The notes under the pieces were generated by a model. That model worked only from the letters and a program-made list of their open reading frames with translations. It had not been told where the DNA came from and did not search any database. Shown piece by piece: positions 22,145-50,432 of a DNA stretch of 64,000 nucleotides (positions within the stretch are counted from its first letter, which is position 1; each line of letters begins with the position of its first letter). The position numbers and the translations under genes are program-made. Where the stretch lies: positions 30,846 through 94,845 of the IMG/VR virus record IMGVR_UViG_3300030099_006908. One strand, 5' to 3'. Source of the DNA: a virus.

Positions 22145-22252
22145 ATGAAAAATAGAATACTTGACAACTATCAAAACTCTGATATATTTTATATACAAAT
22201 TACATTTTACGCTAATTACACCGAAGAGGATGTTTGGACTTATTATGCCTAA
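22145..22252 (+). CDS. possible 35-codon ORF coupling to the next gene
   Basis: ATG at 22145 is one base after the nuclease stop, and the frame ends with TAA at 22250-22252, overlapping the next gene's ATG at 22245. Such an overlap would explain how that gene is translated without a well-placed ribosome site. Against it: a strong promoter lies inside the ORF at 22161-22188, and the sequence (many N, Y, I) is not distinctive. Confidence 0.35.
   Translation: MKNRILDNYQNSDIFYIQITFYANYTEEDVWTYYA
22161..22188 (+). promoter_or_regulatory. sigma-70-type promoter before the dehydrogenase/polymerase genes
   Basis: TTGACA (22161-22166), a 16-nt spacer and TATATT (22183-22188). The start point would lie near 22195, giving a leader of about 50 nt before the ATG at 22245. 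This would allow the dehydrogenase and the polymerase genes to be expressed apart from the upstream chain. Confidence 0.75.
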
Positions 22253-23381
22253 TATACTAATACTTGGAGCGGGAGGCATCGGCCTCCCAATCGCATCAGC
22301 GTTAAAGCACGAAGAATATAATCTTGTTCTGTCTGATTATTCTGAGGATGCCATTGGTAAAGCTAAGGACTATTTCGGTAGAACTAAGTTTGACAGTGAA
22401 TGCTCCCTTGACTTTCATGTTGGCGATGCCAAGGATTATGTTCTAGAGAATAAGCATGACTTTGACATAGTGGTATCAGCTTTGCCATACTACATGAACA
22501 AAGAAATAGCGTTCGCGTGTGTTTCCTCTTGTATAGCTTACGTTGACCTTGGCGGGCATGTAGACACAACCAATTATATTCGCAAGATTACTGAGGAAAT
22601 TGGATGCGCTCCAGTGGCTAGTGACCAAGGACTAGCTCCAGGCTTAGTTAATATCTGTGCGGAAGAGGCTTTTGAAGCCGTTAAGGAAAACAAATACCGT
22701 AGTGCAAAAATAAAGATGGCCGTAGGCGGGCTTCCAGAAAAGGTGGGATTAAATCCTCTAGACTACATTGTTACTTGGTCTATTGATGGTTTGATTAACG
22801 AGTACAGGGGAGAGGCAGAGATTCTGTTGGGGGCAGAAAAGAAGAACGTACCCACACTCACTGGCCTAGAAACGATGACTGTTGACGGAGATGAGCTTGA
22901 GGCGTTTTACACAGCCGGTGGAAGCTCTCACACAATACAATCTATGCTTAACCAAACCTCCCGTCCAATACCTGACGTTACATACAAGACGTTGCGATAC
23001 CCAGGACACTTGGAGATGATAAAGTGGCTCATGGAAGAAATTGAGATGGACACACAAGAGTTGGCACATCTATTTAAGTATGGTTGCGCGGCTTTGAATG
23101 AAAAGGATATTGTGAAGTTCTATGTCGAGGCTACTAATGGGAGCTTGTCTTACAAAAGAGAGCATACCTTCTATGCAAGCGAAGAGTTCTCTGCTATGCA
23201 GCGGTCTACCGCATACAGCGCAGCAGCGGCGATTCAGACAATGTATATAAATAGGCCGATACCAAACGACTCTTTTGCCCTCGATTATTCATACTTCTGT
23301 AGAGATTTGTTTCATGAGCGTTTTAGAGATGCTTTAAATAGAGACCGGCCAGAGAAAGAGAAAGAGTGGTTGGTCTCATGA
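22245..23381 (+). CDS. saccharopine-dehydrogenase-family oxidoreductase
   Basis: A 378-residue NAD(P)-dependent enzyme. The N-terminal Rossmann fold shows ILGAGGIGLPIASAL. The second-domain pattern ASDQGLAPGLVN, then V-G-G-L-P and Y-I-V-T-W-S-I-D-G-L, matches saccharopine dehydrogenase and related reductases (lysine metabolism, carboxynorspermidine dehydrogenase). The substrate cannot be deduced. It is an odd gene for a replication block and may be an auxiliary metabolic gene. The start at 22245 is preferred; an ATG 15 nt earlier abuts the GAGG and has no room for initiation. It ends overlapping the polymerase start (ATGA). Confidence 0.88.
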   Translation: MPNILILGAGGIGLPIASALKHEEYNLVLSDYSEDAIGKAKDYFGRTKFDSECSLDFHVGDAKDYVLENKHDFDIVVSALPYYMNKEIAFACVSSCIAYVDLGGHVDTTNYIRKITEEIGCAPVASDQGLAPGLVNICAEEAFEAVKENKYRSAKIKMAVGGLPEKVGLNPLDYIVTWSIDGLINEYRGEAEILLGAEKKNVPTLTGLETMTVDGDELEAFYTAGGSSHTIQSMLNQTSRPIPDVTYKTLRYPGHLEMIKWLMEEIEMDTQELAHLFKYGCAALNEKDIVKFYVEATNGSLSYKREHTFYASEEFSAMQRSTAYSAAAAIQTMYINRPIPNDSFALDYSYFCRDLFHERFRDALNRDRPEKEKEWLVS

Positions 23382-25339
23382 CATTTTTCCCACTTCATGT
23401 TCACAGTCACGACAGCCTTCTTGATGGTCTTAGTAAGCCTAAAGATATTGCTAAGAGATGTACAGAGCTTGGTCTAAAAGGATGCGCTTTAACAGACCAC
23501 GGCGTTCTCTCTGGTGCAGTCAGCTTCGTAGAAGCCATGAAGTCTGCCGGACTAAAACCTATACTTGGATGCGAGTTCTATATTTGTGAGGGCGACCCTA
23601 CTGACAAGGAGAATAGGACTCGCTCCAACACACACCTCGTCGTGCTTGCCAAGAACAATCAAGGCTGGCAAGACCTAATCGCTGCAACATCCCAGTCCAA
23701 TCACCCAGACTATTTCTACTATGCTCCAAGACTAGACTTGGCTACACTCAAGAAGTTTTGCACAGGAAACTGGATTGCGTTTAGTGGACACATGGGTTCG
23801 CATCTAGCTAACGATATGTTCATAGACCACAAAGAAGCCTACTCTGCCCAAAGCTACGACGAAGCAACCAAGATGGTTGATAAAGATTGGGTAAATAAGG
23901 TTTCTGGTAAAGCTAAGGAACTTGAGGATGTCTTTGGCAAAGGAAACTTCTTCCTAGAAATACAGCTAATAGACGTAGACAATCTTCCTGCTTCTGGCGT
24001 AGTCGCAAAAGGGCTTAGATACCTAAGTAAGAAAATCGACATTCCATGTGTCGCAACACCAGACGCTCACTATGCTTGTCCAGAGGATGCAGATGACCAG
24101 AGAGTTCTTCTGTCTAATCACCCAAGCATAGATACTCCTCTCAAGGACATCTACAAGAAGATGGTTTCAGGAGACGATATAAGCCTGGGAGCTTTCTTTA
24201 AGTCCAGAAATTATTACATTCCTGGACATGACGAAATGATGAAACTCCACACAGAGGAAGAGGTTGCAAATACAGAGAAGATTGCCGATATGTGCGAAGA
24301 ATATACAATTACTGGAAAACCGATGCCGCCTAGATTTCCCCTGCCAGAAAAAGTAACAGCAATTGACAGGCTCAGAGAAAGATGCCGTGAGGGTTGGCAA
24401 AAAAGATGGCCCGCAATTAAAAGCGTTATAGACAGCACTGAACACACGAAAGAAGAGTATGCCGAACGATTTGAGATGGAAATATCCATTCTTGAGAACG
24501 CAAATCTAGCGGACTACTTCTTAATTGTTGACGACATCATCAACTGGGCTAGAAAAGACGGTCAGCTTACAGGAGCCGGTAGAGGCTCTGCTGACGGCTC
24601 TCTAATTCTATATCTTTTAGAAGTAGGTCATATAGACCCAATCAAACACGATTTAATGTTCGAGAGATTTTACAACGCCGGACGAAATACAGCAGACAGA
24701 GTGTCCCTTCCTGATGTGGATATGGACTTCGAGAAGCTTGGTCGTGAGCGTATAATTGGCTATATAAACGACAGGTTTGGTGAAGATAGAGTTTCTCAAA
24801 TGATTACGTTTAGCAAGATGCAAGGACGGGCTGTACTGCAAGATGTAATGAGAGCGCACAGCGCATGTAGTCCAGAAGAGAGAAACAGAATCACAAAGAA
24901 CATACCCGATGAAGCAGACATTTCTGACCAGCTTGAAGATATGCGTCAAGCAGACAAAGATTCTGGCGGCGACGGTAGCGCTAGCATAATTCAGTGGGCT
25001 TTGGAGAACAGAGAAGAGGACTTGAAACAGTGGTGCTACCTTGGCGAAAACGGAAACCTTCAGGGTCCAATGTCAAAGATATTTGAACAAGCTATACGCA
25101 TGGAGGGAACAAAGCGTTCTCGCAGTAAACACGCAGCGGGAATTGTGATTGCCAACGAACCTCTTGCTAAGATTTGTCCCATGGTCTACGACAAAAGCTC
25201 TGGCGAAAGCATTGCTGGAATGGAAATGAATGACCTGGAGTCTATGGGACATATCAAGTTTGACATTCTTGGAATTGCAATTCTAGATAAGATTCACGGA
25301 GTTCAAGACCTATTGTCTACCGGAGAGTTTCGTGATTGA
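23378..25339 (+). CDS. dnaE: DNA polymerase III alpha subunit, N-terminal half (PHP, palm and thumb)
   Basis: A 653-residue protein holding the first part of the replicative polymerase. A PHP domain starts at once (PLHVHSHDSLLDG); the palm begins with L-T-G-A-G-R-G-S-A-D-G-S; the catalytic aspartates lie in LPDVDMDF near residue 445, and the third in HIKFDILGI near 625. The frame then stops after GVQDLLSTGEFRD. In a normal DnaE the finger domain would follow directly; here it lies 1.3 kb away in the gene at 26644. The ATG overlaps the dehydrogenase stop and the end overlaps the glycosylase start, so the break is not an isolated sequencing-type frameshift. Confidence 0.92.
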   Translation: MTFFPLHVHSHDSLLDGLSKPKDIAKRCTELGLKGCALTDHGVLSGAVSFVEAMKSAGLKPILGCEFYICEGDPTDKENRTRSNTHLVVLAKNNQGWQDLIAATSQSNHPDYFYYAPRLDLATLKKFCTGNWIAFSGHMGSHLANDMFIDHKEAYSAQSYDEATKMVDKDWVNKVSGKAKELEDVFGKGNFFLEIQLIDVDNLPASGVVAKGLRYLSKKIDIPCVATPDAHYACPEDADDQRVLLSNHPSIDTPLKDIYKKMVSGDDISLGAFFKSRNYYIPGHDEMMKLHTEEEVANTEKIADMCEEYTITGKPMPPRFPLPEKVTAIDRLRERCREGWQKRWPAIKSVIDSTEHTKEEYAERFEMEISILENANLADYFLIVDDIINWARKDGQLTGAGRGSADGSLILYLLEVGHIDPIKHDLMFERFYNAGRNTADRVSLPDVDMDFEKLGRERIIGYINDRFGEDRVSQMITFSKMQGRAVLQDVMRAHSACSPEERNRITKNIPDEADISDQLEDMRQADKDSGGDGSASIIQWALENREEDLKQWCYLGENGNLQGPMSKIFEQAIRMEGTKRSRSKHAAGIVIANEPLAKICPMVYDKSSGESIAGMEMNDLESMGHIKFDILGIAILDKIHGVQDLLSTGEFRD

Positions 25340-25922
25340 GTTAGAGAAACTAAAAACTGAATACTCATCATGTGAAATATGCTCTCTGTGCCCTAAGAAG
25401 AGCGGCATAAATGGTGTGGTAAAGTCTAGCGGCCCCGTTTCTTCTTTAGCGATAATTGGAGAAGCTCCGGGAGCAGACGAAGACTCTGCCGGAGAACCTT
25501 TTGTCGGAAGGGCGGGCAAGATGCTTGACAAGCTGCTTGAGGGAGCTAAAATAAAAAGGCATCAGGTTTTTATTACAAACGCTGTGAAGTGCAGGCCCAC
25601 ACAAAACAACGGAAAGAAAAATAGAACTCCCACTGCTGATGAATGCGAGTCTTGTAGCCCATGGCTATACAAAGAAATAGATTTAGTTAAACCAAAGGTT
25701 ATTGTAACTCTTGGTAAAACATCGGCTGAAGCTGTTTTGCCTTTACCTAAAAATTTTACACTTGGTAATTATATAAATAAGTCTCATGAATCTAGCATTG
25801 GAAACGGTGCGTACACAGTTGTTCCGTGTTGGCACCCGTCTTACCTTATGCAGCATGGCAGAAAGAAGTTTGATGAGGCTGTAGACTGTTTTAAGTTGGC
25901 AAAGAAATTGGTATTGAAATGA
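25332..25922 (+). CDS. family-4-type uracil-DNA glycosylase
   Basis: A 196-residue DNA repair enzyme removing uracil from DNA. Motif 1 is seen as GEAPGADED with G-E-P-F-V-G-R-A-G following; the late motif is W-H-P-S-Y. Cysteines in CEICSLC and CRPT ... CESC fit the 4Fe-4S cluster of this family. The start is GTG at 25332, behind GGAGAG, overlapping the end of the first polymerase half by 8 nt. Placed between the two halves of the polymerase, it may work at the fork. Confidence 0.93.
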   Translation: MIELEKLKTEYSSCEICSLCPKKSGINGVVKSSGPVSSLAIIGEAPGADEDSAGEPFVGRAGKMLDKLLEGAKIKRHQVFITNAVKCRPTQNNGKKNRTPTADECESCSPWLYKEIDLVKPKVIVTLGKTSAEAVLPLPKNFTLGNYINKSHESSIGNGAYTVVPCWHPSYLMQHGRKKFDEAVDCFKLAKKLVLK

Positions 25923-26647
25923 ATTATAACTCTATATGCTGTTACGATTATGAGACTGGTTCTCCCGACTCATCTACGTGTTCTATCATACAAATAGCCG
26001 CAGAGATGATACACGGAAGGAATTTAAATGTAGTTGACAAATTTTCTGCCTATGTCCGCCCGGACTTTGACGACAAAGAATCCACGACAGACGAAACAAT
26101 AGATTGGCATTGCAGGAACAAAGGCATGTCAAAAAAGAAGTTTGTAGATATGCTAAACGAGTGCCCTCCAATAAATGTTGTATGGAAAAACTTTTCCTCT
26201 TGGATTGACAAATACAACTGGGGTAAGACTAATAAGAGTGGCTATCATGCTCCGGTGTCTGCTGGATACAATATACTTGGATTTGACAATCCTATTACTG
26301 ATAGGCACTGCAAAATATTTGGACCGACTGAAAAAGACAGGCGCAGCGGCGAAGAGAGGCCAAGGATGTTTAATCAAATATACAGCTTTGATTTAATGCA
26401 GCATGTCTGGTATTGGTTTGAGAATAACAGCGAGCTTAAAAACCAAAAGCTAACAACCGTCTTAGAGTACATGGGTGTGCCGGAGGAGGTGACTGCAAAC
26501 GCTCATGACGCAGAGTTTGATGTTGAGTGGACATCTAAGGTCATCATAAAGCTGTTGAAAACATCTAGATGGATGACTGGATGGAATGAACAAAAGCAGA
26601 AAAGAAGACTTGAATTTGCTAACGCATTTGCACAGGAGTTTAAATGA
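25919..26647 (+). CDS. DnaQ-like DEDDh 3'-5' exonuclease
   Basis: A 242-residue exonuclease. Catalytic residues: D10 and E12 in YDYETGS, D near 122 in GYNILGFDNP, and H..D in AHDAEFDVEW (about 194-199), the DEDDh set of the polymerase III epsilon subunit. It is the likely proofreader for the split alpha subunit, encoded between its halves with stop/start overlaps on both sides (ATGA at 25919 and 26644). It lacks the clamp-binding extension of bacterial DnaQ, as far as can be seen. Confidence 0.9.
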   Translation: MNYNSICCYDYETGSPDSSTCSIIQIAAEMIHGRNLNVVDKFSAYVRPDFDDKESTTDETIDWHCRNKGMSKKKFVDMLNECPPINVVWKNFSSWIDKYNWGKTNKSGYHAPVSAGYNILGFDNPITDRHCKIFGPTEKDRRSGEERPRMFNQIYSFDLMQHVWYWFENNSELKNQKLTTVLEYMGVPEEVTANAHDAEFDVEWTSKVIIKLLKTSRWMTGWNEQKQKRRLEFANAFAQEFK

Positions 26648-28344
26648 GTAAGGTTAGATGGCCGTGTGGATGTGAGCTTCCAGTAAAGAGTTGTTCTGAC
26701 ACACCAATGGTGATTAACGTAGAGTTCGGAGATACGCTTCCTAAAGGTATAGAGCTAGATGTCTACAGCATGAATCTTAATTGTGAAGCAACTTGGGACA
26801 TGATATGCAGCGGCAGGACGAAAGGCGTTTTTCAGCTAGAGAGCGCACTTGGTCGTCAATGGGCCAAGAAACTAGAACCAAGAAGCATTGAAGAGCTTGG
26901 AGCGCTAGGCGCTTTACTTCGTCCAGGGTGCCTTAGAGCCATGTCTGGAAATCCACCAAAGAGCATGACGCAAAGATATTGCGATAGAAAGCATGGTGTT
27001 GAACAAGTCGTTTATCCTCACGAATCATTGGAACCGATTCTTAAAAAGACGCAAGGCGTACTAACTTTTCAAGAGCAAGCCATGAAGATAGCTGTAGTTC
27101 TTGCTGGTTTCAATGAGCAGCAAGCGGACATCCTCCGCAAGGCTATCGGTAAAAAGAAAGCCGATGTTATGCATGAGGTTAAGAAGTCCTTTCTTGAGGG
27201 CGCTAAAAAAACAGGTATAGTATCAGAAGAACTGGCTGAGGAAATTTTTGGCTGGATTCAGGAGTCCCAGAGATACTCTTTTAACAAAAGCCACGCAGAC
27301 GCATATGCGCTCAATGGATATTGGAGCGCGTTTTGCAAAACACATATGCCGCTTGAGTTTTATTGCTCTTGGCTTAGGGGTGCAGCGTGGAAAGGCGCAA
27401 AGCAATACGAGGAAATTTACGACCTAGTAAATGACGCAAAGGTAAACAACATAGACGTTCTTCCCCCAACGCTTGCAGACAAAAGAAACACTTTCTACAT
27501 CAAAGACAAGAAGGTTTATTTCGGTCTTTCTAGCATCAGAGGCATAGGCTCTGCTGTAATCGAGAAGATAGTAGAAAAGCTAACTGATGTAGAAAAAAAG
27601 CTGGGCAGAGGTATTGGCGCATGGATGTGGCTTGAATATTTAAAGTATGGAACAGAATGTGTATCATCCAACGTAACCGAGGGGATGATAAAGGCTGGGG
27701 CTTTAGACTTCTTTGAGCGTTCAAGAAACGAGATGCTTTATGAGTATTCTATATGGTCGCAACTTAGCCCAACAGAAAAAAAGTGGATTGTAAATGAATA
27801 CAGCGGATACAAACTGATTGAAGCATTAAAGCGGTGTCAGCCAAAAAGAGTGATGAAAAATAAAGTCCAGGTTGCTGGTGGAGGATGTGTAAATGATAAG
27901 CGCTCTAATTTTGTAGGAGATTTAATCACATCCTTAAAAAATCCACCTCACAAGTTGCAAGATAGCATGGATTGGATTGCTTGGAATGAACAAAAAACAC
28001 TGGGCGCTCCAATAACCTGTAGCAGAGTGGATGCGCTGGAAAGGGGAATAGAGGCTAATTGTACCTGCAAGGAATTCATTACGACAAAAAGAAAAGACTA
28101 TATGAAGTTTGCTGTAGAAGTCACCAAGGTGAAAGTAGTAAAAACAAAAAATGGAAAAAACCCTGGTAAAGAAATGGCTTTTCTTACCCTAGAAGATAAC
28201 AGTTGCTCTTTAGATGACGTAGTTTGTTTTCCAGATATTTTTCAAGAGTGTCGAGACGCCATATATGAAGGAAACACAATATTGGTTCAGGGAGATAGAG
28301 GACGAAATGACTCTCTTGTTGTCGGTCAAATATGGCAAATTTAA
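26644..28344 (+). CDS. dnaE: DNA polymerase III alpha subunit, C-terminal half (fingers, HhH, OB)
   Basis: A 566-residue protein that continues the alpha subunit. After about 35 residues with cysteines at 8, 10 and 17 (RWPCGCELPVKSC) comes the usual start of the fingers: TKGVFQLES near residue 62, GVLTFQEQAM near 140, and YSFNKSHADAYA near 213. A helix-hairpin-helix (LSSIRGIGSAVIEKI, about 298) and a C-terminal OB fold (about 480-566) follow. With the first half it totals 1,219 residues, close to a normal DnaE. The intein fragments that join split cyanobacterial DnaE are not visible. The two halves probably assemble without splicing. Confidence 0.92.
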   Translation: MSKVRWPCGCELPVKSCSDTPMVINVEFGDTLPKGIELDVYSMNLNCEATWDMICSGRTKGVFQLESALGRQWAKKLEPRSIEELGALGALLRPGCLRAMSGNPPKSMTQRYCDRKHGVEQVVYPHESLEPILKKTQGVLTFQEQAMKIAVVLAGFNEQQADILRKAIGKKKADVMHEVKKSFLEGAKKTGIVSEELAEEIFGWIQESQRYSFNKSHADAYALNGYWSAFCKTHMPLEFYCSWLRGAAWKGAKQYEEIYDLVNDAKVNNIDVLPPTLADKRNTFYIKDKKVYFGLSSIRGIGSAVIEKIVEKLTDVEKKLGRGIGAWMWLEYLKYGTECVSSNVTEGMIKAGALDFFERSRNEMLYEYSIWSQLSPTEKKWIVNEYSGYKLIEALKRCQPKRVMKNKVQVAGGGCVNDKRSNFVGDLITSLKNPPHKLQDSMDWIAWNEQKTLGAPITCSRVDALERGIEANCTCKEFITTKRKDYMKFAVEVTKVKVVKTKNGKNPGKEMAFLTLEDNSCSLDDVVCFPDIFQECRDAIYEGNTILVQGDRGRNDSLVVGQIWQI

Positions 28345-41501: not shown

Positions 41502-42108
41502 TGACTCTGGTTGGAAAGAAGCTAGTGCAAAGGCTTTTGAGCAACAGTTTGCTCTTAATTTAAGAGAATTAAGCGACCCACCGACTCATTGGAGGTTTTT
41601 TTTAGAGGAACTGTCTAGAATAAAAAATTCAAAAAGGGTCGTAGATATAGGGTGTGGAGTAGGCTCTTTTTCCAAGCTGATTCGCATGTGGCATGGCGAT
41701 TTAAATTATGTGGGATATGATTATTCGGAAGCCGCCATAGAAACAGCCAAAAATATGTGGGGTGAATTTGGCGCGTTTGAACAAAGAGACTATCATGACA
41801 TTTCCACTAAAGACATACAGGACGGGGATGTCGTAGTTGCCAATGCTTTATGTGATGTTCTTCCAGATGGAGACGAGTGCTTTGAGCATATTCTATCGCT
41901 GGGCGCGAAGAATGTAATTTTTTTAAGAGTTCGAACTACAGAAAAAGAAAGCTTTTATGAAGAATATGAAGCATACGGTGAAATTCAAACTTATGCGTTT
42001 TATCACAATGAGTCAGGTTTGAATGAAATAATTAAAAAGAATGGGTATAATCCACCTAGATTTAATCACTATTCTGAAAATATAATGAACATTCATCTAG
42101 AAAAATGA
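41488..42108 (+). CDS. class I SAM-dependent methyltransferase
   Basis: A 206-residue methyltransferase with motif I VVDIGCGVGSFSKL (about 51-64), the acidic D in Y-V-G-Y-D-Y-S, and motif IV near V-V-V-A-N-A-L-C-D-V-L-P. It is not FkbM type. A sugar or sugar-nucleotide is the likely substrate given position, directly before the sialyltransferase-like gene. Confidence 0.87.
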   Translation: MKISNDSGWKEASAKAFEQQFALNLRELSDPPTHWRFFLEELSRIKNSKRVVDIGCGVGSFSKLIRMWHGDLNYVGYDYSEAAIETAKNMWGEFGAFEQRDYHDISTKDIQDGDVVVANALCDVLPDGDECFEHILSLGAKNVIFLRVRTTEKESFYEEYEAYGEIQTYAFYHNESGLNEIIKKNGYNPPRFNHYSENIMNIHLEK

Positions 42109-42737
42109 AGCAAATTAAAGCTGTAACTCCGACACTTTTTGTAAAATCAAACATGGCTATAGTTGGCTCATCATCGTCTTTATTAGACGCAGAGCGGGGT
42201 CAAGATATAGACGATTTTGATGAAGTCGTAAGGTTTAACAGGGCTCCAACAGAGGGGTGGGAAAATTATGTAGGCTCAAAAACAACCCTTAGAGTCGCTA
42301 ATAATCATGTGTTTGCAAACGTAAAACATAATGTGGGTGGAGATGAGGAGTGCGACGATTGGAAGCCGCAGGGTCAACCTCAAAACTTTATAAGAGATTT
42401 AAAAGACCAAAAAATACTATTGCTTAACAAAGACTTTTCGGCATGGGAAGAGAAAGAAAAGCACATAGACTCAAGCTCAACAGCATTTTTAGGTAATTAT
42501 TTGTGCGTTGAGTCTTTTGGGGGAACTCTTTCGCCAAGTGTTGGTTACGCCTTTATAGCCTTGTGTATAATGAACGGAATCAAACCAACGTTATTTGGTT
42601 TTGGTCTTGCAGAAGAGGATAATAAAGCTAGCCATTATTGGGAGAATAAGGACAGGATTATTTCCAGCCACGGATATAAGTTGGAAAGACAAAATATTAA
42701 AAACTGGAACAAGGCAGGGAAATTGCTCATAAAATGA
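42105..42737 (+). CDS. GT29-like sialyltransferase
   Basis: A 210-residue protein with the sialylmotifs of GT29. Motif L (residues 18-61): AIVGSSSSLL, Q-D-I-D, DEVVRFNRAPTEGW and YVGSKTT, close to the V-G-N-S ... G-x-x-I-D ... R-x-N-x-A-P-T ... V-G-S-R-T-T pattern. Motif S (143-167): S-P-S-V-G-Y, then TLFGFGL. Motif VS: HYWE (177-180). It would transfer a CMP-activated sialic-acid-like sugar. The motif L cysteine that forms a disulfide in animal enzymes is absent. It overlaps the NeuB gene (ATGA). No membrane anchor is present, so it is cytosolic. Confidence 0.88.
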   Translation: MKQIKAVTPTLFVKSNMAIVGSSSSLLDAERGQDIDDFDEVVRFNRAPTEGWENYVGSKTTLRVANNHVFANVKHNVGGDEECDDWKPQGQPQNFIRDLKDQKILLLNKDFSAWEEKEKHIDSSSTAFLGNYLCVESFGGTLSPSVGYAFIALCIMNGIKPTLFGFGLAEEDNKASHYWENKDRIISSHGYKLERQNIKNWNKAGKLLIK

Positions 42738-44587
42738 AAAACCATACAACTATCATTGCTGAGGTTGGCCTAAATCACAATGGAAGCGTAGAGATTGGAA
42801 AACGATTAGTTGATGCGGCAAAAATATCTGGAGCAGATTATGTCAAATTTCAAATGAGAGATTTGAAATCATTATATAGAAATCCAGATAATTACTACAA
42901 CGAAAGCCTAGCTACGCAATACACATTAGACCTGTTGCATAAATACGATTTGAGCTTTGATGAACTTATTGAGCTTTTTAATTATGCTAAAAAAGAAGGG
43001 ATAGAGCCATTATGCACTCCATGGGACACTCACAGCGTTTCCGTATTAGAAGCATATGGAATATCAGCTTATAAAACAGCGTCGGCTGACCTAACAAACA
43101 TTGAATTACTGGAGTGTATCGCCCAAACAAACAAGCTGATGTTTTGCTCTACCGGAATGTCAACAGAGGGAGAGATTATAAAGGCCTGTCGATTACTAGA
43201 TAAAATGAATGCTAACTACAAACTTATGCATTGCAATTCTACATATCCAGCCCCATACAAGGATATTCAACTTAAATATATTGAAAGATTAAGAGTCATA
43301 TCCAATAAGGACGTTGGATATTCTGGGCATGAAGATGGAATAGATGTGCCGATGGCTGCTGTTGCTTTGGGGGCGAACATTATAGAAAAGCATATTACCC
43401 TTGACAGGAATCAAGAAGGAAATGACCATAAGGTTAGCTTGCTTCCAGAAGAGTTTTCCGAAATGGTCAAGGGCATTCGAAATATTGAAGACGCTCTTGG
43501 CGAAGGCAAAAAAAGAAGGGTCACTCAAGGAGAGCTAATTAACAAAGACAGCTTGGCTAAAAGCATGGTAGCAAAAAAAGATATAAAATATGGCGAGGTT
43601 ATTAATAGAGATTGTATTGACATCAAAAGCCCTGGAGGGGGCTTACAGCCGATTGACCTTAATGAGATTATTGGCAAAACAGCCAAAAGACATATTAAGG
43701 CTGGAGATTTTTTCCATAAATGCGATTCAAATGAACTAGAGCTTCCGCAATATTTCGACATAGACAGAACATGGGGTCTTCCTGTACGCTTTCATGATTA
43801 TGATTTTTATCTAAAAAACAGCAATCCAAAACTTCTAGAGTTTCATCTTAGCTATAAAGACCTAGAGATGAACCCTTCAGAAATTTTCAATCAAAAATAT
43901 GACAAGGAAATAACTGTTCACGCGCCAGACCTTTTTGAAAACGACCACCTAATTGACCTAGCCTCTAAAGACGAAAACTACAGGGCAGAGTCGGTTAGAC
44001 ACATGGAAAAAGTTATATCAATATCGAAACAAATTAAACCGTTTTTCAATTGCGATAAAATTAGAATTGTTGCTAGCATCGGAGGAACCACTAGAACAGA
44101 ATGGATGAGTGATTCAGAAAAAGAAGAAGGGTACGAACTTTTGGCAAAATCTTTGGAAGAGCTAAAAGATAAGGACGTTGAGTTCTTATTGCAAACCCTA
44201 CCACCCTTTCCTTGGTATTTCGGCGGACAGCTACACTTAAACCTACTTGTTCTTCCAGACGAGATTGACTGGTTCTGCTCAAAATATAATTATAAATTAT
44301 GCCTAGACACCTCACACTCACAGTTAGCTTCAAATTACTACAAAATAAACTACATAGATTTTATTAACAAAATCAAAGACCATGTTGGACATATGCACTT
44401 ATCTGATGCGTTTGGCCTAGATGATGAAGGTATTCAGATTGGAAAAGGGCAGATAGATTTTGCCAGACTCTTGAAAAAAATCAACAATAGCGTGTCCTTT
44501 ATTCCAGAAATTTGGCAAGGACATAGAAACTTAGGCTACGATTTTTGGATAGCCTTGAGAAAGATAGAGGAAATACTAAATGATTAA
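42734..44587 (+). CDS. neuB: NeuB-type sialate synthase fused to SAF and TIM-barrel domains
   Basis: A 617-residue three-part protein. Residues 1-270 form the NeuB barrel condensing phosphoenolpyruvate with an N-acyl-mannosamine-type sugar: IAEVGLNHNGS, VKFQMRD, G-Y-S-G-H-E and the metal histidine in EKHITLDR. Residues about 280-335 are a SAF domain (KSMVAKKDIKYGEVI), where the usual R-S start reads K-S. Residues about 350-617 are a sugar-isomerase/AP-endonuclease-2-like TIM barrel with H-A-P-D, L-C-L-D-T-S-H-S, H-M-H-L-S-D-A and a late P-E-I-W-Q-G-H. The exact nonulosonic acid cannot be deduced. The aldolase-like gene follows with an 8-nt overlap. Confidence 0.9.
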   Translation: MKNHTTIIAEVGLNHNGSVEIGKRLVDAAKISGADYVKFQMRDLKSLYRNPDNYYNESLATQYTLDLLHKYDLSFDELIELFNYAKKEGIEPLCTPWDTHSVSVLEAYGISAYKTASADLTNIELLECIAQTNKLMFCSTGMSTEGEIIKACRLLDKMNANYKLMHCNSTYPAPYKDIQLKYIERLRVISNKDVGYSGHEDGIDVPMAAVALGANIIEKHITLDRNQEGNDHKVSLLPEEFSEMVKGIRNIEDALGEGKKRRVTQGELINKDSLAKSMVAKKDIKYGEVINRDCIDIKSPGGGLQPIDLNEIIGKTAKRHIKAGDFFHKCDSNELELPQYFDIDRTWGLPVRFHDYDFYLKNSNPKLLEFHLSYKDLEMNPSEIFNQKYDKEITVHAPDLFENDHLIDLASKDENYRAESVRHMEKVISISKQIKPFFNCDKIRIVASIGGTTRTEWMSDSEKEEGYELLAKSLEELKDKDVEFLLQTLPPFPWYFGGQLHLNLLVLPDEIDWFCSKYNYKLCLDTSHSQLASNYYKINYIDFINKIKDHVGHMHLSDAFGLDDEGIQIGKGQIDFARLLKKINNSVSFIPEIWQGHRNLGYDFWIALRKIEEILND

Positions 44588-45503
44588 AGGTCCAGTTTAC
44601 CCAATTATTTTACCATTTAATAACAAAAAAGATATTGACATTCCGTCTCTTCAGAGATATATATCATATATAGTCGATGGAGGTGGAAAATATATAATGG
44701 TCGCTTCGGCAACCAGTAGGTTTTCTCAGCTATCTACCGAAGAGATTAAAACAGTAAACAAGGTAACAATAGAGTCAACCATAGAAAGCGGAGGCGTTCC
44801 AATCGCTTCTACGCCTATAAGTGGAAGCACTAAAACACACATAGAGGTTGCCCAACAAGCAGAAAGAGATGGGGCTGAAATTGTTATCTGTGAATATCCT
44901 TGGAGGTATCAAGGCTCAGGTCCTTTAATAGATTATTTTAAAGAGATAGTGAACAACACAAACCTTGACGTAATGCTTCACGTTACACCAACCAGAAGCG
45001 AAGTAGAAACCAGCTTTGGAAAAACACATAGATATGAAATTGACGATTTGGTAGAAATATGCTCTTTACCAAGGGTCATAGGATTTAAGGAAGCTGCCGG
45101 AGACCCAGAACATTCAGAAAAAATATGGCGTGTTTTAGGTAAATCTACGAGTATTATAGTGGCGGTCGCGGCAAGCGAGACATTCTTGAAGGCTCGTCCA
45201 TACGGTGCTACTGGATTTTTCACTGGAATTGAAAGCATATTTCCAAGATTTGGAAAAGAAGTTTACGATTTAATTTTGAATGACGACAAAGAAAAGTCTT
45301 CTGAAATAGTTTCACAAATGTCTGACTTATTGCACTCATGCAAAAATTTTGGATGGCATGCTGCTTCAAAATACTGTCTTTTTAAATTAGGCATTATGGG
45401 AATAGACGAAAGAGAGCCTATGAACCCAATAAGCGAAGAAGCTCAAAAAATATTAGACCCTAAAATTGAAACTCTAATTGATATATATGGACAATATAGT
45501 TAG
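44580..45503 (+). CDS. DapA/NanA-family aldolase-like protein
   Basis: A 307-residue TIM-barrel of the dihydrodipicolinate synthase/N-acetylneuraminate lyase family. The Schiff-base lysine is K170 in VIGFKEAAGD. Two usual features are altered: the G-T-T-G-E loop reads S-A-T-S-R (about 43-47), and the catalytic tyrosine of Y-N-x-P is H134 in LHVTP. It may therefore use a different substrate from sialate or act on a related ulosonate. Position between NeuB and a kinase suggests a role in making or recycling the acid sugar. Confidence 0.85.
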   Translation: MIKGPVYPIILPFNNKKDIDIPSLQRYISYIVDGGGKYIMVASATSRFSQLSTEEIKTVNKVTIESTIESGGVPIASTPISGSTKTHIEVAQQAERDGAEIVICEYPWRYQGSGPLIDYFKEIVNNTNLDVMLHVTPTRSEVETSFGKTHRYEIDDLVEICSLPRVIGFKEAAGDPEHSEKIWRVLGKSTSIIVAVAASETFLKARPYGATGFFTGIESIFPRFGKEVYDLILNDDKEKSSEIVSQMSDLLHSCKNFGWHAASKYCLFKLGIMGIDEREPMNPISEEAQKILDPKIETLIDIYGQYS

Positions 45504-46326
45504 AAGCAAATGGGGGATACATAATCGAAGCATTGAGAAGATAAATGCTTTGTATGGAGATGTATATAATCTAGACAATAAATATATATTAAAAATAACA
45601 AATATAAATTCAAATGAAAAGCAAGGCTTAATTAATTCGTTCATGAATAAAGCTCATGAAAAAGGATTTCCGGTTCCGAGAACAACACAAACAAAAGAAG
45701 GCGGTTTATTTTTTTCAGAATCTAGAAAAACATACTCTTTGTATGATTATATTTCAGGAAATCACTATGATTTTAAAGAAGGTTCTCTAATACAGGCCGC
45801 AACAACACTTGCCCGTTTTCATGATGAGTTTGAAAAAGAATTAGAGCTTGAACAAGAGGTTGAAAAGGTTTGCGGAGACGTTTACCCCTATGACTTATCG
45901 GGTATTAAATACTATACCAGCGAGGTCAGGGAGGCGGTTAAGCTAATAGATAGGTCAGAAAGGTTTTGCGTTAGTCTTCCTAGACAGATTGGACATTTTG
46001 ATTACATACCTAGCAACTTGATATTTAAAAACGGAAAAATGATAGGTTTAATAGATTTCGATATCATGCGTGTTTCTGAGAAAGCGAGGGATTTGGCCAT
46101 CTCACTGCACAGGCTAACAAAAAATGAATTACAAAAAAAGCTGTTCTTAGATTCTTACGGGTCTATAAATAATTTAACAGATGCAGAATTGCAGTCTATG
46201 AATGATTTATATTTTGATGAGATGAAAAGAAAATTAATTTATACTATCAGGAGATATAATATATCGCCTAAGCCATTTAAAGTTTTATTTGACAGGATAA
46301 AAAATGAAAAACTTGAACGAGTTTAG
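45487..46326 (+). CDS. APH-fold small-molecule kinase
   Basis: A 279-residue kinase of the aminoglycoside-phosphotransferase/choline-kinase fold. Start ATG at 45487, overlapping the previous gene by 17 nt. The Brenner motif is IGHFDYIPSNLIF (about 166-178), followed by the metal-binding L-I-D-F-D. Next to NeuB and the aldolase, it could phosphorylate a hexosamine or an alcohol used in the glycan. The substrate is not known; a homoserine kinase-like role is possible. Confidence 0.85.
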   Translation: MDNIVRSKWGIHNRSIEKINALYGDVYNLDNKYILKITNINSNEKQGLINSFMNKAHEKGFPVPRTTQTKEGGLFFSESRKTYSLYDYISGNHYDFKEGSLIQAATTLARFHDEFEKELELEQEVEKVCGDVYPYDLSGIKYYTSEVREAVKLIDRSERFCVSLPRQIGHFDYIPSNLIFKNGKMIGLIDFDIMRVSEKARDLAISLHRLTKNELQKKLFLDSYGSINNLTDAELQSMNDLYFDEMKRKLIYTIRRYNISPKPFKVLFDRIKNEKLERV

Positions 46327-47011
46327 CTCAGAATTAAAAAAAGATGCGCAAGGTATGCACGATGACTGTAAGCTTCAGGATGATGCGTTTAGTGTATTGG
46401 TCAGGGCTGACAGACATAGGTGGATACACCAAACAAACTTTGCTGGAATTCCCGCGTTGCAACTACCTCAAGACTTGTTTGCTATTCAGGAAATAGTTTT
46501 TAAAACTAAACCTCAAGTCATAGTAGAGCTTGGTGTTGCGTGGGGAGGAACTACAATGTTCCTTGAGTCTTTTCATCAGGGAGATATAATAGGGGTAGAC
46601 CTCCAAATACCAGACCACCTAAGAGACGCAACCGCATTTAAAGGAAATATTAGGTTCCTTATAGGAGACAGCGTTTTGAGCGCAGAGGTAATTAAAAGGT
46701 TTGTTGGAGATAGAAGTTGTATGGTTGTAGTAGACTCTATGCACACACATAAACACGTTCTTGAAGAACTCAACGCTTTTTCAGACATTGTTACCCCTGG
46801 CTGCTACATGGTTGTTTGCGACACTCTAGTTGACGACCCAAGATACCACGAAGACGGAGCGGCAAGAAATCGTCCTTGGGGACCAGGAAACAGCCCAAGA
46901 AGCGCTTTGAATCAGTTTCTTGAAGAAAATCCAGAGTTTGAAAGAGACGAGAACATAAGAAATAAACTATTGTTTTCATGCCAACCAGACGGATACATAT
47001 ACAAGAAATGA
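46304..47011 (+). CDS. CmcI-like cephalosporin-hydroxylase-family protein
   Basis: A 235-residue SAM-binding Rossmann protein. VIVELGVAWGGTTMFLES (about 72-89) is the SAM loop; V-V-V-D-S-M-H-T-H-K-H-V-L and C-D-T follow, giving the Asp/His metal cluster of the CmcI/RhmI group. Family members methylate or hydroxylate sugars and lipids; sugar O-methylation is likely in this context. It overlaps both neighbours. Confidence 0.83.
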   Translation: MKNLNEFSSELKKDAQGMHDDCKLQDDAFSVLVRADRHRWIHQTNFAGIPALQLPQDLFAIQEIVFKTKPQVIVELGVAWGGTTMFLESFHQGDIIGVDLQIPDHLRDATAFKGNIRFLIGDSVLSAEVIKRFVGDRSCMVVVDSMHTHKHVLEELNAFSDIVTPGCYMVVCDTLVDDPRYHEDGAARNRPWGPGNSPRSALNQFLEENPEFERDENIRNKLLFSCQPDGYIYKK

Positions 47012-48006
47012 AAGAAACCCTTACGTTAATAGTCCCTCTTCTAGACAGGCACGAGCTTACAGACCGGTCATTGAAGTGGTTAGAGCAGCAAGAATGCGAG
47101 TGTAAAGTTATACTTGCGGACGGAAGCAAGGTTCCGTTTTCTGGCTCCTATAAGAGCCTGGATATACAGTATTTCTATAACGGCTTTGATGAAAACATAG
47201 CTCGATACATGAACAAAATGCATCGGGCTACTCAAATGGTTGAAACTCCGAGTTGCATGATATTTGATAACGACGATGTTATTAATTTAAGCGGCATACT
47301 GAATGGGGCTTATTTTTTGAGCGAAAACGATGATTACAGCACCTATCAAAATGACGTAAGGCCACTTGAGATATATCCAGAAATAAGCGTCAAGGATTCT
47401 TTGTACACAGGAAAATCAATAGAACAGGAACTTCCCGAAGACAGGCTGTTGAACGTTATAAGTAATTTTAACAGCTTTAACTACGCCGTTTTCAGAACCT
47501 CTATAATGAAATGCTTTTTCGAGATTATGGACGCTTTAAAAAACGATGATTTCCAATTATTTCAAAAATCTTGGGCATATACATCAGCGATTTTAGGCAA
47601 GTGCAAGAGGCTTCAAGACCAGTCTTATTACTATTTCATTCCTGGCAACAGCATATTACAAACAGGGGGCAAGGTACATAAGTTTAGCAACTGGGTTTCA
47701 ACGCAATACTGGAACGAGTCCTGCCCAAAAATGGTTTCTATTATATCATGTCTTTACCGAGGTGACATAAGAGAAATATTCTTAAGAGCCTTTTTAGATG
47801 AGATTTGCAAAAAAAACAATATTGAACCGGCTAGTGAAGAATATATTGATGGAGTCATCAAAGCTTCTCACGACTATGACGACACAGTACGAAAAGTTGT
47901 AGACAAATACTGTAAGTTATTTACGTTTGAATCGTGGCGTTTTAATGCCCAGGAATATTATCCAGTTGGACACGCTACCTTTGTGGAGGATATTATTGAT
48001 GGCTAA
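47008..48006 (+). CDS. GT2-like (TIGR00180-type) glycosyltransferase
   Basis: A 332-residue protein from the ATG at 47008, overlapping the previous TGA. LTLIVPLLDRHELTDRSLKW resembles the first strand and helix of the TIGR00180 group; the metal site is M-I-F-D-N-D-D-V near 87. The C-terminal half is unrecognised. It is the last recognisable transferase before the sulfotransferase pair. Confidence 0.78.
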   Translation: MKETLTLIVPLLDRHELTDRSLKWLEQQECECKVILADGSKVPFSGSYKSLDIQYFYNGFDENIARYMNKMHRATQMVETPSCMIFDNDDVINLSGILNGAYFLSENDDYSTYQNDVRPLEIYPEISVKDSLYTGKSIEQELPEDRLLNVISNFNSFNYAVFRTSIMKCFFEIMDALKNDDFQLFQKSWAYTSAILGKCKRLQDQSYYYFIPGNSILQTGGKVHKFSNWVSTQYWNESCPKMVSIISCLYRGDIREIFLRAFLDEICKKNNIEPASEEYIDGVIKASHDYDDTVRKVVDKYCKLFTFESWRFNAQEYYPVGHATFVEDIIDG

Positions 48007-48865
48007 ACATGTAGTTCTTGATGCTATTGCTCGTTCTGGCACAACTCTAATGAGCGCGCTTCTTAGAAGCCAAGAAAAAACAATTGCTTTCTGTCCTGGA
48101 TTTAATGAGCCTCTTTCTTGTAAAAACATGGGGGAGTGGCCTCATGGAATGTGTAGAAAAGAGTTTGTTAATCGGCCTGAGTTAAGTTTAGACTTGTTTA
48201 AAAAAGAGAGTCTTTCCTATATCAACGATTACGCTCAGTATTATGGTCTTAGCAAAGATTCGTGGAGGTCTATAATTTATGATGCGTCTAGCACAAAAGA
48301 TATAAGAAAAAATATGGAAGAGGCTTTTCCTGATGTTGAAGTTTTTTGTTATAGATGGAATCAGGCTTTATGTTATTTTTACGAATGGATAGAAAAAGGC
48401 GAAGATTATCTTTGGGTTTCAATGATAAGAAACCCCCTGGATAGAGCGGTTTCTTCTATGCAAAAACATGGATGGTCCTTTGAAGACAGCTTAAACAGCA
48501 CCTTATCTTTTTGCGAAAAGTTAAAGTCGGTAAAAAATAATGAAAAATTTTATTTAATTCGATACGAGAGTCTAGCAAATTTGCCAGAGAAAGAGATGCA
48601 AGATATATACTCTTTTTTTTCGGTAAACCTCAGCTCAATAAATCTAAATGATATAAAGGGTTCCAATGGAGAGCATTTTATACCTCAAAGCTCTACAATA
48701 AAAGATACTACCACAAAAAAAGACGGGTATCTAACTGAAGCAGAAAAATTTAACGGGGTTTACACAAATCAAATAAATAGACATCCGTTCCATGAAGACG
48801 ATGATGTGTATCGGTGTTTTATGGACAGCTTGTCTGAATATGAAGAATATAAGGTATATTTTTAA
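47999..48865 (+). CDS. sulfotransferase
   Basis: A 288-residue enzyme from the ATG at 47999, overlapping the previous gene by 8 nt. The PAPS 5'-phosphosulfate loop is DAIARSGTTLMSAL (RSGTT at 12-16) and the 3'-phosphate motif is MIRNPLDRAVSSM, with the expected R and S. It should transfer sulfate from PAPS to a sugar hydroxyl. The next gene is a second member with different sequence, which suggests sulfation at two positions. Confidence 0.82.
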   Translation: MAKHVVLDAIARSGTTLMSALLRSQEKTIAFCPGFNEPLSCKNMGEWPHGMCRKEFVNRPELSLDLFKKESLSYINDYAQYYGLSKDSWRSIIYDASSTKDIRKNMEEAFPDVEVFCYRWNQALCYFYEWIEKGEDYLWVSMIRNPLDRAVSSMQKHGWSFEDSLNSTLSFCEKLKSVKNNEKFYLIRYESLANLPEKEMQDIYSFFSVNLSSINLNDIKGSNGEHFIPQSSTIKDTTTKKDGYLTEAEKFNGVYTNQINRHPFHEDDDVYRCFMDSLSEYEEYKVYF

Positions 48866-49740
48866 TGAAAGAAAACTTTTTACACATAGGCTATCACAAG
48901 ACAGCTACCACATGGATGCAGCAGTTCATGTTCCCGATAATATTTGAATCAAAGTATTTTGGAAAGTCTATTGAGCAAAAAAGAGACAACACCCTTTATT
49001 TAAGGGAAATGGATAACTTAAAAAACTTATTCTACAAAAATTCAAACGCTTGCTTCTCTGACGAGTTTTTCATGAAGCCTATGCCTAGAGGAAAGTTTGA
49101 CTTTGAAAAGAATATCGCTATAACAGATAGAAACAATATGCCAACGCCATCAAAAGAATTTTATATCTGCTCAGACAATCATGTAAAATCAATTTGTAAT
49201 AAAATTTGCTCTAACCTTGTAGATGAGAATATTAACACCAAGGTTATTTTATCCATTAGAAATCAAACAGACATGTTCTTTTCTATGTACTTGCACCAAG
49301 AAAGAGCGCCTCACCAAAAATGGAACAGTCCAGATATATGGGTTAAAGACTTAAACGGATTCATTTCAAAGTTTGATAGAAAATTTCTTACAAAAAAGCT
49401 TAAAAATTATTATGATTTTAATAATACATACACGCAATTAGTAAAAACTTTTGGACAAAAAAATGTGCATGTTATAATATATGAAAACCTTTTCAAAAAC
49501 ACTGAAAATGAAATAAATAGGCTTTATTGTTTTATGGCAAAAGAAATGGACTTAAAAGCGTTAGAGCAAATAAAAAGCCGTGTTAGCACAAAAAAGAACG
49601 ACAGTCGGAACGATTCCTATAAAAGACAAAAAAACGGAGAAGATATAAGAAAATTGTTGATGCAAGAATACAAAGATTCTAATAAAGAACTCTCTAAGCT
49701 AATAAAATTTGATTTAAGCAAATACGGATATCACCAATGA
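48865..49740 (+). CDS. sulfotransferase-like protein
   Basis: A 291-residue protein with HIGYHKTATTWMQ (K12-T-A-T-T16) as the 5'-phosphosulfate loop and V-I-L-S-I-R-N-Q-T-D-M-F-F-S-M as the 3'-phosphate segment (R and S spaced by eight). The C-terminal half is lysine-rich. Its start shares a base with the stop of the first sulfotransferase. The acceptor is probably a sugar of the same glycan. Confidence 0.82.
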   Translation: MKENFLHIGYHKTATTWMQQFMFPIIFESKYFGKSIEQKRDNTLYLREMDNLKNLFYKNSNACFSDEFFMKPMPRGKFDFEKNIAITDRNNMPTPSKEFYICSDNHVKSICNKICSNLVDENINTKVILSIRNQTDMFFSMYLHQERAPHQKWNSPDIWVKDLNGFISKFDRKFLTKKLKNYYDFNNTYTQLVKTFGQKNVHVIIYENLFKNTENEINRLYCFMAKEMDLKALEQIKSRVSTKKNDSRNDSYKRQKNGEDIRKLLMQEYKDSNKELSKLIKFDLSKYGYHQ

Positions 49741-50432
49741 AAAGAAGATTAGCTGTAATTCCAGCAAGAAGCGGAAGTAAAAGGTTTCCAGGAAAAAATT
49801 GGGCAAAACTAGGAGAATACCCTCTGTGGCAGTGGAGCGTTGATGTTGCCTCTGTTGCTTTTGAAACCACTGTCTTCACAACAGACTCAGAAAATCTTCT
49901 GTACGATGTTGTAAATAAAGAAGGAAGTTTTGTAGCAGGCCTACTAAGACCCAAAGAGCTGTCCTCAGACACCTCAAAGGTAATAGATACAGTAAATTGG
50001 ATTTATGATATATACGACAAAAGTCCAAGTAAGCCCGACGAAATTTGGCTGCTTCTTCCAACGTGCCCATTAAGGAGTCTTAAAGACGCAGTTGATGCTC
50101 AAGACAAATTAAGCGCCAACAATGACTGCGATGGAATAATTAGCATTACGGACTATGAGTTTCCACCTCAACTTGGATTGACGCATGAGGGTGAACAGAT
50201 AAGGGACTGGCATGAAAGTAAGCCTTGGCAGTCTGGAAACACTAGAAGCCAGGACCATGAAAAAATATACAGACCAAACGGAGCGCTTTACGGAATGAAG
50301 TGGGAGGCATTTAGACAAAACAGAAATTTCTATAAAGGAAAAATATGCAGTTACTATATGCCCAGAGAGCGTTCAGTTGATATAGATAATGAAATTGACC
50401 TTAAATTAGCAGAGGCGTTAATCAATGAATAA
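49737..50432 (+). CDS. neuA: CMP-sialate synthetase (NeuA-type cytidylyltransferase)
   Basis: A 231-residue cytidylyltransferase. The CTP loop IPARSGSKRFPGKN (8-21), L-L-P-T-C-P-L-R near 103-110, the R-P-N-G-A-L-Y segment near 181-187 and R-S-V-D-I-D-N-E-I-D near 212-221 match CMP-N-acylneuraminate synthetase. It activates a sialate-type acid with CTP to the donor used by a sialyltransferase such as that at 42105. It overlaps the preceding and following genes. Confidence 0.92.
   Translation: MKRRLAVIPARSGSKRFPGKNWAKLGEYPLWQWSVDVASVAFETTVFTTDSENLLYDVVNKEGSFVAGLLRPKELSSDTSKVIDTVNWIYDIYDKSPSKPDEIWLLLPTCPLRSLKDAVDAQDKLSANNDCDGIISITDYEFPPQLGLTHEGEQIRDWHESKPWQSGNTRSQDHEKIYRPNGALYGMKWEAFRQNRNFYKGKICSYYMPRERSVDIDNEIDLKLAEALINE

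Follow-up and report, generated by a model that had tools for sequence, protein, structure and literature searches.

Introduction

The first-pass annotation of the DNA studied here called GT29 glycosyltransferases best known from animals, which holds as far as it goes, but members of this family also occur in bacteria and archaea, where a survey of 2018 described them and could not predict the function of the bacterial proteins (PMC5811610), and in coccolithoviruses, which carry a GT29 (PMC5371807). In plants, RCKT1/MGP2 has been assigned by genetics as the GT29 Kdo transferase of rhamnogalacturonan II (PMC11288761). Another plant GT29, GALT29A, is named as a galactosyltransferase, so that membership of the family cannot by itself fix the donor. 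To our knowledge, no prokaryotic GT29 has a known activity.

Among phages, Synechococcus phage S-SCSM2R (PQ898602) has KdsA annotated beside KdsB and gave no GT29 match. When 50,697 phage records were searched with three GT29 queries, the sole match was LR756508. This 484 kb record of an uncultured phage is unannotated; it encodes five or more GT29s and, close to them, a synthase and a CMP-transferase. A literature search, which covered mostly papers available without subscription, returned no report of a phage GT29 or of a module such as the one described below. We have analyzed a stretch of 64,000 nucleotides, hereafter the window, which corresponds to bases 30846-94845 of the 94.8 kb virus record IMGVR_UViG_3300030099_006908. 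We consider it likely that this region holds a module with which the phage synthesizes an ulosonic acid of the Kdo or nonulosonic acid type, activates it as a CMP ester and transfers it, and that the synthase of the module is exchangeable.

A glycan island in a phage contig

The features of the locus are listed below in window coordinates.

28414-56958, + strand: glycan island with glycosyltransferases, nucleotide-sugar enzymes, methyltransferases and two sulfotransferases, without membrane proteins
42105-42737, + strand: GT29 transferase of 210 residues, soluble, without membrane anchor (PF00777, fold search, hydropathy)
42153-42299, + strand: sialylmotif L, residues 17-65, MAIVGSSSSLLD...VVRFNRAPTEG...VGSKTTLRVA (aligns with ST3Gal1 and ST6Gal1; invariant residues)
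42534-42605, + strand: sialylmotif S region, residues 144-167 (second domain of the PDB alignment; Gly147 invariant)
42633-42644, + strand: sialylmotif III, HYWE, residues 177-180 (His177 and Tyr178 invariant in 23 GT29s)
42669-42686, + strand: sialylmotif VS, H-x4-E, residues 189-194 (invariant in 23 GT29s)
42734-44587, + strand: NeuB-family PEP-condensing synthase with SAF domain and xylose-isomerase-like TIM barrel (PF03102, PF08666, PF01261)
44580-45503, + strand: DHDPS-family Schiff-base enzyme (PF00701; Lys170 kept, catalytic Tyr replaced by His134)
45478-46326, + strand: APH-fold small-molecule kinase (PF01636), last gene of the exchanged cassette
49737-50432, + strand: CMP-ulosonate cytidylyltransferase of NeuA/PseF type (PF02348, PseF model, NeuA structures)

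The four genes that had been singled out at first sight, encoding the GT29 (42105), NeuB (42734), the DHDPS-family enzyme (44580) and the NeuA-type enzyme (49737), were all recovered on the + strand. The island is preceded on its 5' side by phage genes encoding RIIA, RIIB, ribonucleotide reductase, DnaB helicase, primase and polymerase. Bacterial contamination was ruled out for the window by RIIA, RIIB, the DnaB helicase, the primase and the phage-type polymerase; a host search with this polymerase gave distant relatives only.

Several other genes of the window were noticed. The DNA polymerase is encoded in two frames (23366-28344, covering positions 42-614 and 619-1059 of phrog_405), with uracil-DNA glycosylase and exonuclease-like genes lying between them, and a gene of the saccharopine-dehydrogenase family (22161-23381) stands amid the replication genes. 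Two adjacent sulfotransferase-family genes occupy 47927-49740, the second of which is swapped for an unrelated gene in L003, the locus of a close relative.

The transferase is a soluble GT29

The 210-residue protein matched the PF00777 profile (Glyco_transf_29) with E = 3.1e-19 and 69.9 bits, three times the curated cut-off of 23. Its sequence matches in the PDB were all GT29 sialyltransferases, the mammalian ST3Gal1 and ST6Gal1 being found at E of about 1e-9. Conservation was studied in an alignment of 23 prokaryotic GT29s (22 from phages and one from a bacterium). Arg43, Asn45, Gly57 and Thr60 of motif L, Gly147 of motif S, His177-Tyr178 of motif III and His189-x4-Glu194 of motif VS were invariant in all 23, and conservation thus extends well beyond chance. 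An AlphaFold2 model built from eight sequences was of moderate confidence (pLDDT 76, pTM 0.79). When used in a fold search, it retrieved 30 PDB chains at E < 0.001, all of them ST8SiaIII, ST3Gal1, ST6GalNAc2 or ST6Gal1, with TM-scores of 0.55-0.66 on the query, while the next match had an E of 0.05.

By profile, sialylmotifs and predicted fold, the protein is therefore a true GT29. The first-pass annotation had proposed this assignment, with motifs L, S and HYWE judged unlikely to agree by chance, and had named a profile search and a fold prediction as checks; neither of them spoke against membership. The fourth motif, VS, is kept as well, and a chance match is ruled out by the profile, the fold and the invariance over 23 sequences.

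Enzymes encoded beside the transferase

The product of 42734-44587 matched the NeuB profile PF03102 with E = 1.5e-79 and carries a C-terminal xylose-isomerase-like TIM barrel (PF01261) which had not been mentioned before. The cytidylyltransferase matched PF02348 (E = 9e-13), NeuA structures (E = 4.6e-19) and the PseF model (E = 1.4e-32), the latter with 113.2 bits and below the cut-off of 205.7. It is a putative CMP-transferase of NeuA/PseF type, in broad agreement with its earlier identification as NeuA.

The product of 44580-45503 belongs to the DHDPS family (PF00701, E = 3.9e-29). The Schiff-base Lys170 is invariant in five phage members, and the catalytic Tyr is replaced by His. This protein had been taken for a sialate-lyase-type aldolase, which is too specific: it scored 43.6 bits against the NanA equivalog, far under the cut-off of 382, and was matched better by the models for KdgD and DapA. 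We reject the sialate-lyase label on this ground. At another locus (L056), the DHDPS domain is fused to an N-terminal domain which, as read from the sequence, resembles a GT2 glycosyltransferase.

GT29 genes are linked to ulosonate synthesis in viral contigs

In a search of viral contigs anchored on GT29, NeuB or KdsA together with a CMP-transferase was found near the GT29 in all lineages whose loci were not truncated by the end of a contig; no synthase was seen at three GT29 loci (L018, L019 and L144), all of which end at contig ends. The phage GT29s were diverse in sequence, and most of the phages bearing them have NeuB, fewer having KdsA. Anchoring on KdsA gave a GT29, a DHDPS-family gene and a CMP-transferase in 7 of 8 loci, one of the seven GT29s being divergent and lacking HYWE.

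A control search was anchored on GDP-fucose synthase and returned 80 loci, 11 with and 69 without a GT29. A NeuB or KdsA synthase was present in 8 of the 11 GT29 loci versus 1 of the 69 others (P = 5e-8) and a CMP-transferase in 7 versus 3 (P = 1e-5), the values being 2e-6 and 2e-5, respectively, when the window's own relatives were left out; all these P values are optimistic because the loci are partly related. NeuB by itself is common in viral contigs, with at least 523 matches. The best 80 of these (L059-L138) are mostly without GT29: a CMP-transferase lay within 10 kb in 67 of the 80 but a GT29-like gene was found in 9 only, indicating that phage NeuB is combined with several transferases, of which GT29 is one. 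A DHDPS gene occurred in two of these 80 NeuB loci and in three of the 80 control loci, and all five have a GT29.

The genes are also tightly packed. In the window, the start of NeuB overlaps the stop of the GT29. In locus L149, the GT29 frame overlaps that of NeuB, and the latter that of the CMP-transferase, by 4 bases; locus L152 has overlapping frames in another order (GT29, CMP-transferase, NeuB). These data bear on the explanation that the genes lie together only because sugar islands are large and that the window GT29 uses some other nucleotide sugar. The many unrelated sugar genes of the island and the naming of one plant GT29, GALT29A, as a galactosyltransferase would fit it, but the synthase is present in just one of the 69 other phage sugar islands with the same anchor, DHDPS is confined to GT29 loci in the NeuB and control anchor sets, and the frames overlap tightly. 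We regard this explanation as very improbable.

Outside the viral contigs, a scan of genome contigs yielded one Opitutales MAG with a GT29. NeuB is encoded elsewhere in the same genome, and none of the module's seed genes was found within 10 kb of this GT29. The gene is rare in the phylum of the MAG, where 4 of 388 genomes were over the cut-off.

Additional features were seen at the loci surveyed. In the glycan island of LR756508.1 (about 308-327 kb, L005), five or more GT29 genes lie with a single NeuB beside fibre-like genes, and one further GT29-like frame appeared split in the scan. A HAD-like protein of about 100 residues, with a DIDETIC or DIDNTIF motif, is encoded near several modules (L016:13565-13894, L018:7986-8279, L053:11104-11442 and L054:18080-18424) and in 37 of the best 80 NeuB loci, and is possibly a sugar-acid phosphatase; the L016 copy gave no Pfam match. 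In the 370.8 kb record IMGVR_UViG_3300030385_002649 (L017:5560-8357), adjacent genes read from their sequence as isocitrate lyase-like and malate synthase-like would equip a very large, putatively viral contig with a glyoxylate shunt.

The synthase is exchanged between related phages

Locus L003 comes from a 148.8 kb virus record of a close relative, and most of its flanking genes are 74-97% identical to those of the window. The GT29s share 89% and the CMP-transferases 86.5% identity. The genes for the NeuB-barrel protein, the DHDPS-family enzyme and the kinase are replaced in L003 by another DHDPS-family gene (20% identical) and by KdsA. This KdsA matched the Aquifex Kdo-8-phosphate synthase 1fwn with E = 5e-51, contains the KANRSS-type and QIPAFLxRQTDL motifs (as KANRTS and QIPAFLCRQTDL), and keeps Cys10, His184, Glu220 and Asp231, which we take to be the Cys/His/Glu/Asp metal ligands of KdsA. 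A more distant locus, L054, has the same gene order, with KdsA. In the GT29 tree, the window groups with L003 and L052, both KdsA-bearing (support 100/99), and consequently the synthase type has changed while the transferase was retained, in either direction.

Three types of cassette were distinguished: KdsA with DHDPS; NeuB-barrel with DHDPS and kinase; and NeuB with or without a cupin. Related phages thus appear to swap the synthesis of the acidic sugar while keeping the same transferase. A broader proposal, which we put forward tentatively, is that a single GT29 and a single CMP-transferase are retained by phages while ulosonate cassettes are exchanged, which would generate glycan diversity, that the DHDPS cassettes would yield acids of unknown structure, and that CMP-ulosonates of eight as well as nine carbons would serve phage GT29s as donors. 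At L056:15407-17744, a SIS-domain isomerase and two apparent transketolase halves are encoded near KdsA, possibly for pentose phosphate supply.

Proposed route and nature of the acid

From these data we infer the following route. The PEP-condensing synthase, NeuB here and KdsA in close relatives, would form a 2-keto-3-deoxy sugar acid, which the cytidylyltransferase (49737) would convert into its CMP ester. The soluble GT29 (42105) would then transfer the acid, in the cytoplasm, onto a glycan assembled by the remaining glycosyltransferases encoded in the island and most likely borne by a virion protein. The DHDPS-family enzyme, which recurs in GT29 modules, may perform Schiff-base chemistry on the 2-keto acid or a precursor, and the fused TIM barrel and the kinase probably shape the acceptor sugar of NeuB in place of NeuC; all these roles are guesses.

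The region was first annotated as a sialic-acid-type route to a nonulosonic acid. The association of a GT29 with CMP-ulosonate genes agrees with this; sialic acid itself is one option only, given the KdsA-bearing relatives, the plant Kdo GT29 and the lack of NeuC and of Arg314. The earlier remark that no NeuC was visible was confirmed, since a PF02350 search found no such epimerase in the 94.8 kb record and 16 related virus records, which may be incomplete. In alignment, the window NeuB has Ser where the SAF domain of meningococcal NeuB has Arg314, a residue that presumably contacts the ManNAc acceptor, and several phage NeuBs are missing the SAF domain altogether. These features, and KdsA in the related phages, weigh against plain sialic acid.

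A true sialic or nonulosonic route would have NeuB condense PEP with host ManNAc or a diamino-hexose, a NeuA-like enzyme form the CMP sugar, and the GT29 act as a strict sialyltransferase. The best NCBIfam matches are indeed the NeuB and PseF models, the catalytic-core residues align with those of meningococcal NeuB and PseI, and NeuB outnumbers KdsA among GT29-bearing phages. However, every equivalog cut-off was missed (NeuB_NnaB, 312.9 bits versus 399.65; PseI, 238.3 versus 340.25), L003 pairs a near-identical GT29 and CMP-transferase with KdsA, and the absence of NeuC from the 17 records, the Arg314 to Ser change and the SAF-less NeuBs also weigh against it, so that we hold such a route to be plausible but short of probable.

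Conversely, the acid could be Kdo or another octulosonate here too, the NeuB-barrel-kinase cassette being an alternative path to a KdsA-like product; the two products being close, the retained CMP-transferase and GT29 would still work. This would suit the modest divergence of these two enzymes from those of L003 (only 11-13%), the nearest GT29s, which are from KdsA phages, and the missing Arg314. On the other hand, the products of functionally characterized NeuB enzymes are nine-carbon acids derived from amino sugars, and donor tolerance of the GT29 and CMP-transferase would explain the exchange equally well. We find a common octulosonate unlikely. The reading that we favour is that the type of ulosonic acid differs between phages; for the window, the candidates are a nonulosonate, an octulosonate and an acid of a new kind, to whose structure the barrel, the kinase and the DHDPS-family enzyme would contribute.

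Target of the glycan

A simple hydropathy scan detected no membrane-type hydrophobic stretch in the 34 genes of the island, which indicates that flippases, polymerases and lipid-linked initiating transferases are not encoded there. The glycan is therefore unlikely to be exported to the cell surface, and from the island's composition we favour a target within the cytoplasm, for example a virion protein. The glycan might instead be attached to the host envelope or to phage DNA. Bacterial envelopes commonly contain Kdo and nonulosonates, which would suit the first of these destinations. Phage glycosyltransferases able to change serotype or modify DNA are cited in PMC12619734, in line with either of them. 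The lack of membrane-type stretches in the island speaks against the envelope, while the analysis turned up no evidence for or against modification of DNA. An envelope or DNA target appears possible but rather doubtful, and we retain the virion as the favoured site.

Discussion

In these phages, GT29 genes adjoin probable donor-making enzymes of two alternative chemistries, an arrangement that opens the way to a direct test of the donor. It suggests that GT29s transfer ulosonic acids generally, sialic acid being the animal case and Kdo the plant case. Transfer of this kind would mean that phages, besides glycosylating their products in the known ways, also decorate them with acidic ulosonates.

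Compared with the animal GT29 sialyltransferases (ST3Gal, ST6Gal, ST6GalNAc and ST8Sia; PF00777), the phage enzyme agrees in profile, in all four sialylmotifs (L, S, III and VS) and in predicted fold, but it is only 210 residues long, is devoid of a Golgi membrane anchor and is about 20% identical to them when the folds are aligned. The GT29s of PMC5811610 are likewise prokaryotic and carry sialylmotifs; they come from cellular genomes, mostly of alphaproteobacteria, and the passages of that paper considered here contain no link to ulosonate synthesis or phages. Plant RCKT1/MGP2 resembles the phage GT29, as proposed here, in using a non-sialic CMP-ulosonate donor, deduced in the plant from mutants (PMC11288761), but it is a Golgi enzyme acting on pectin. 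With the KdsA-KdsB pathway to Kdo, relatives such as L003 share a KdsA beside a CMP-transferase, although the CMP-transferase of GT29 modules is NeuA/PseF-like, unlike that of this pathway. Finally, the module has a NeuB-family synthase and a CMP-transferase in common with the bacterial NeuB-NeuC-NeuA sialic acid pathway, from which it differs by the absence of NeuC, the fusion of NeuB to a TIM barrel, the additional DHDPS-family enzyme and kinase, and a GT29 as the transferase.
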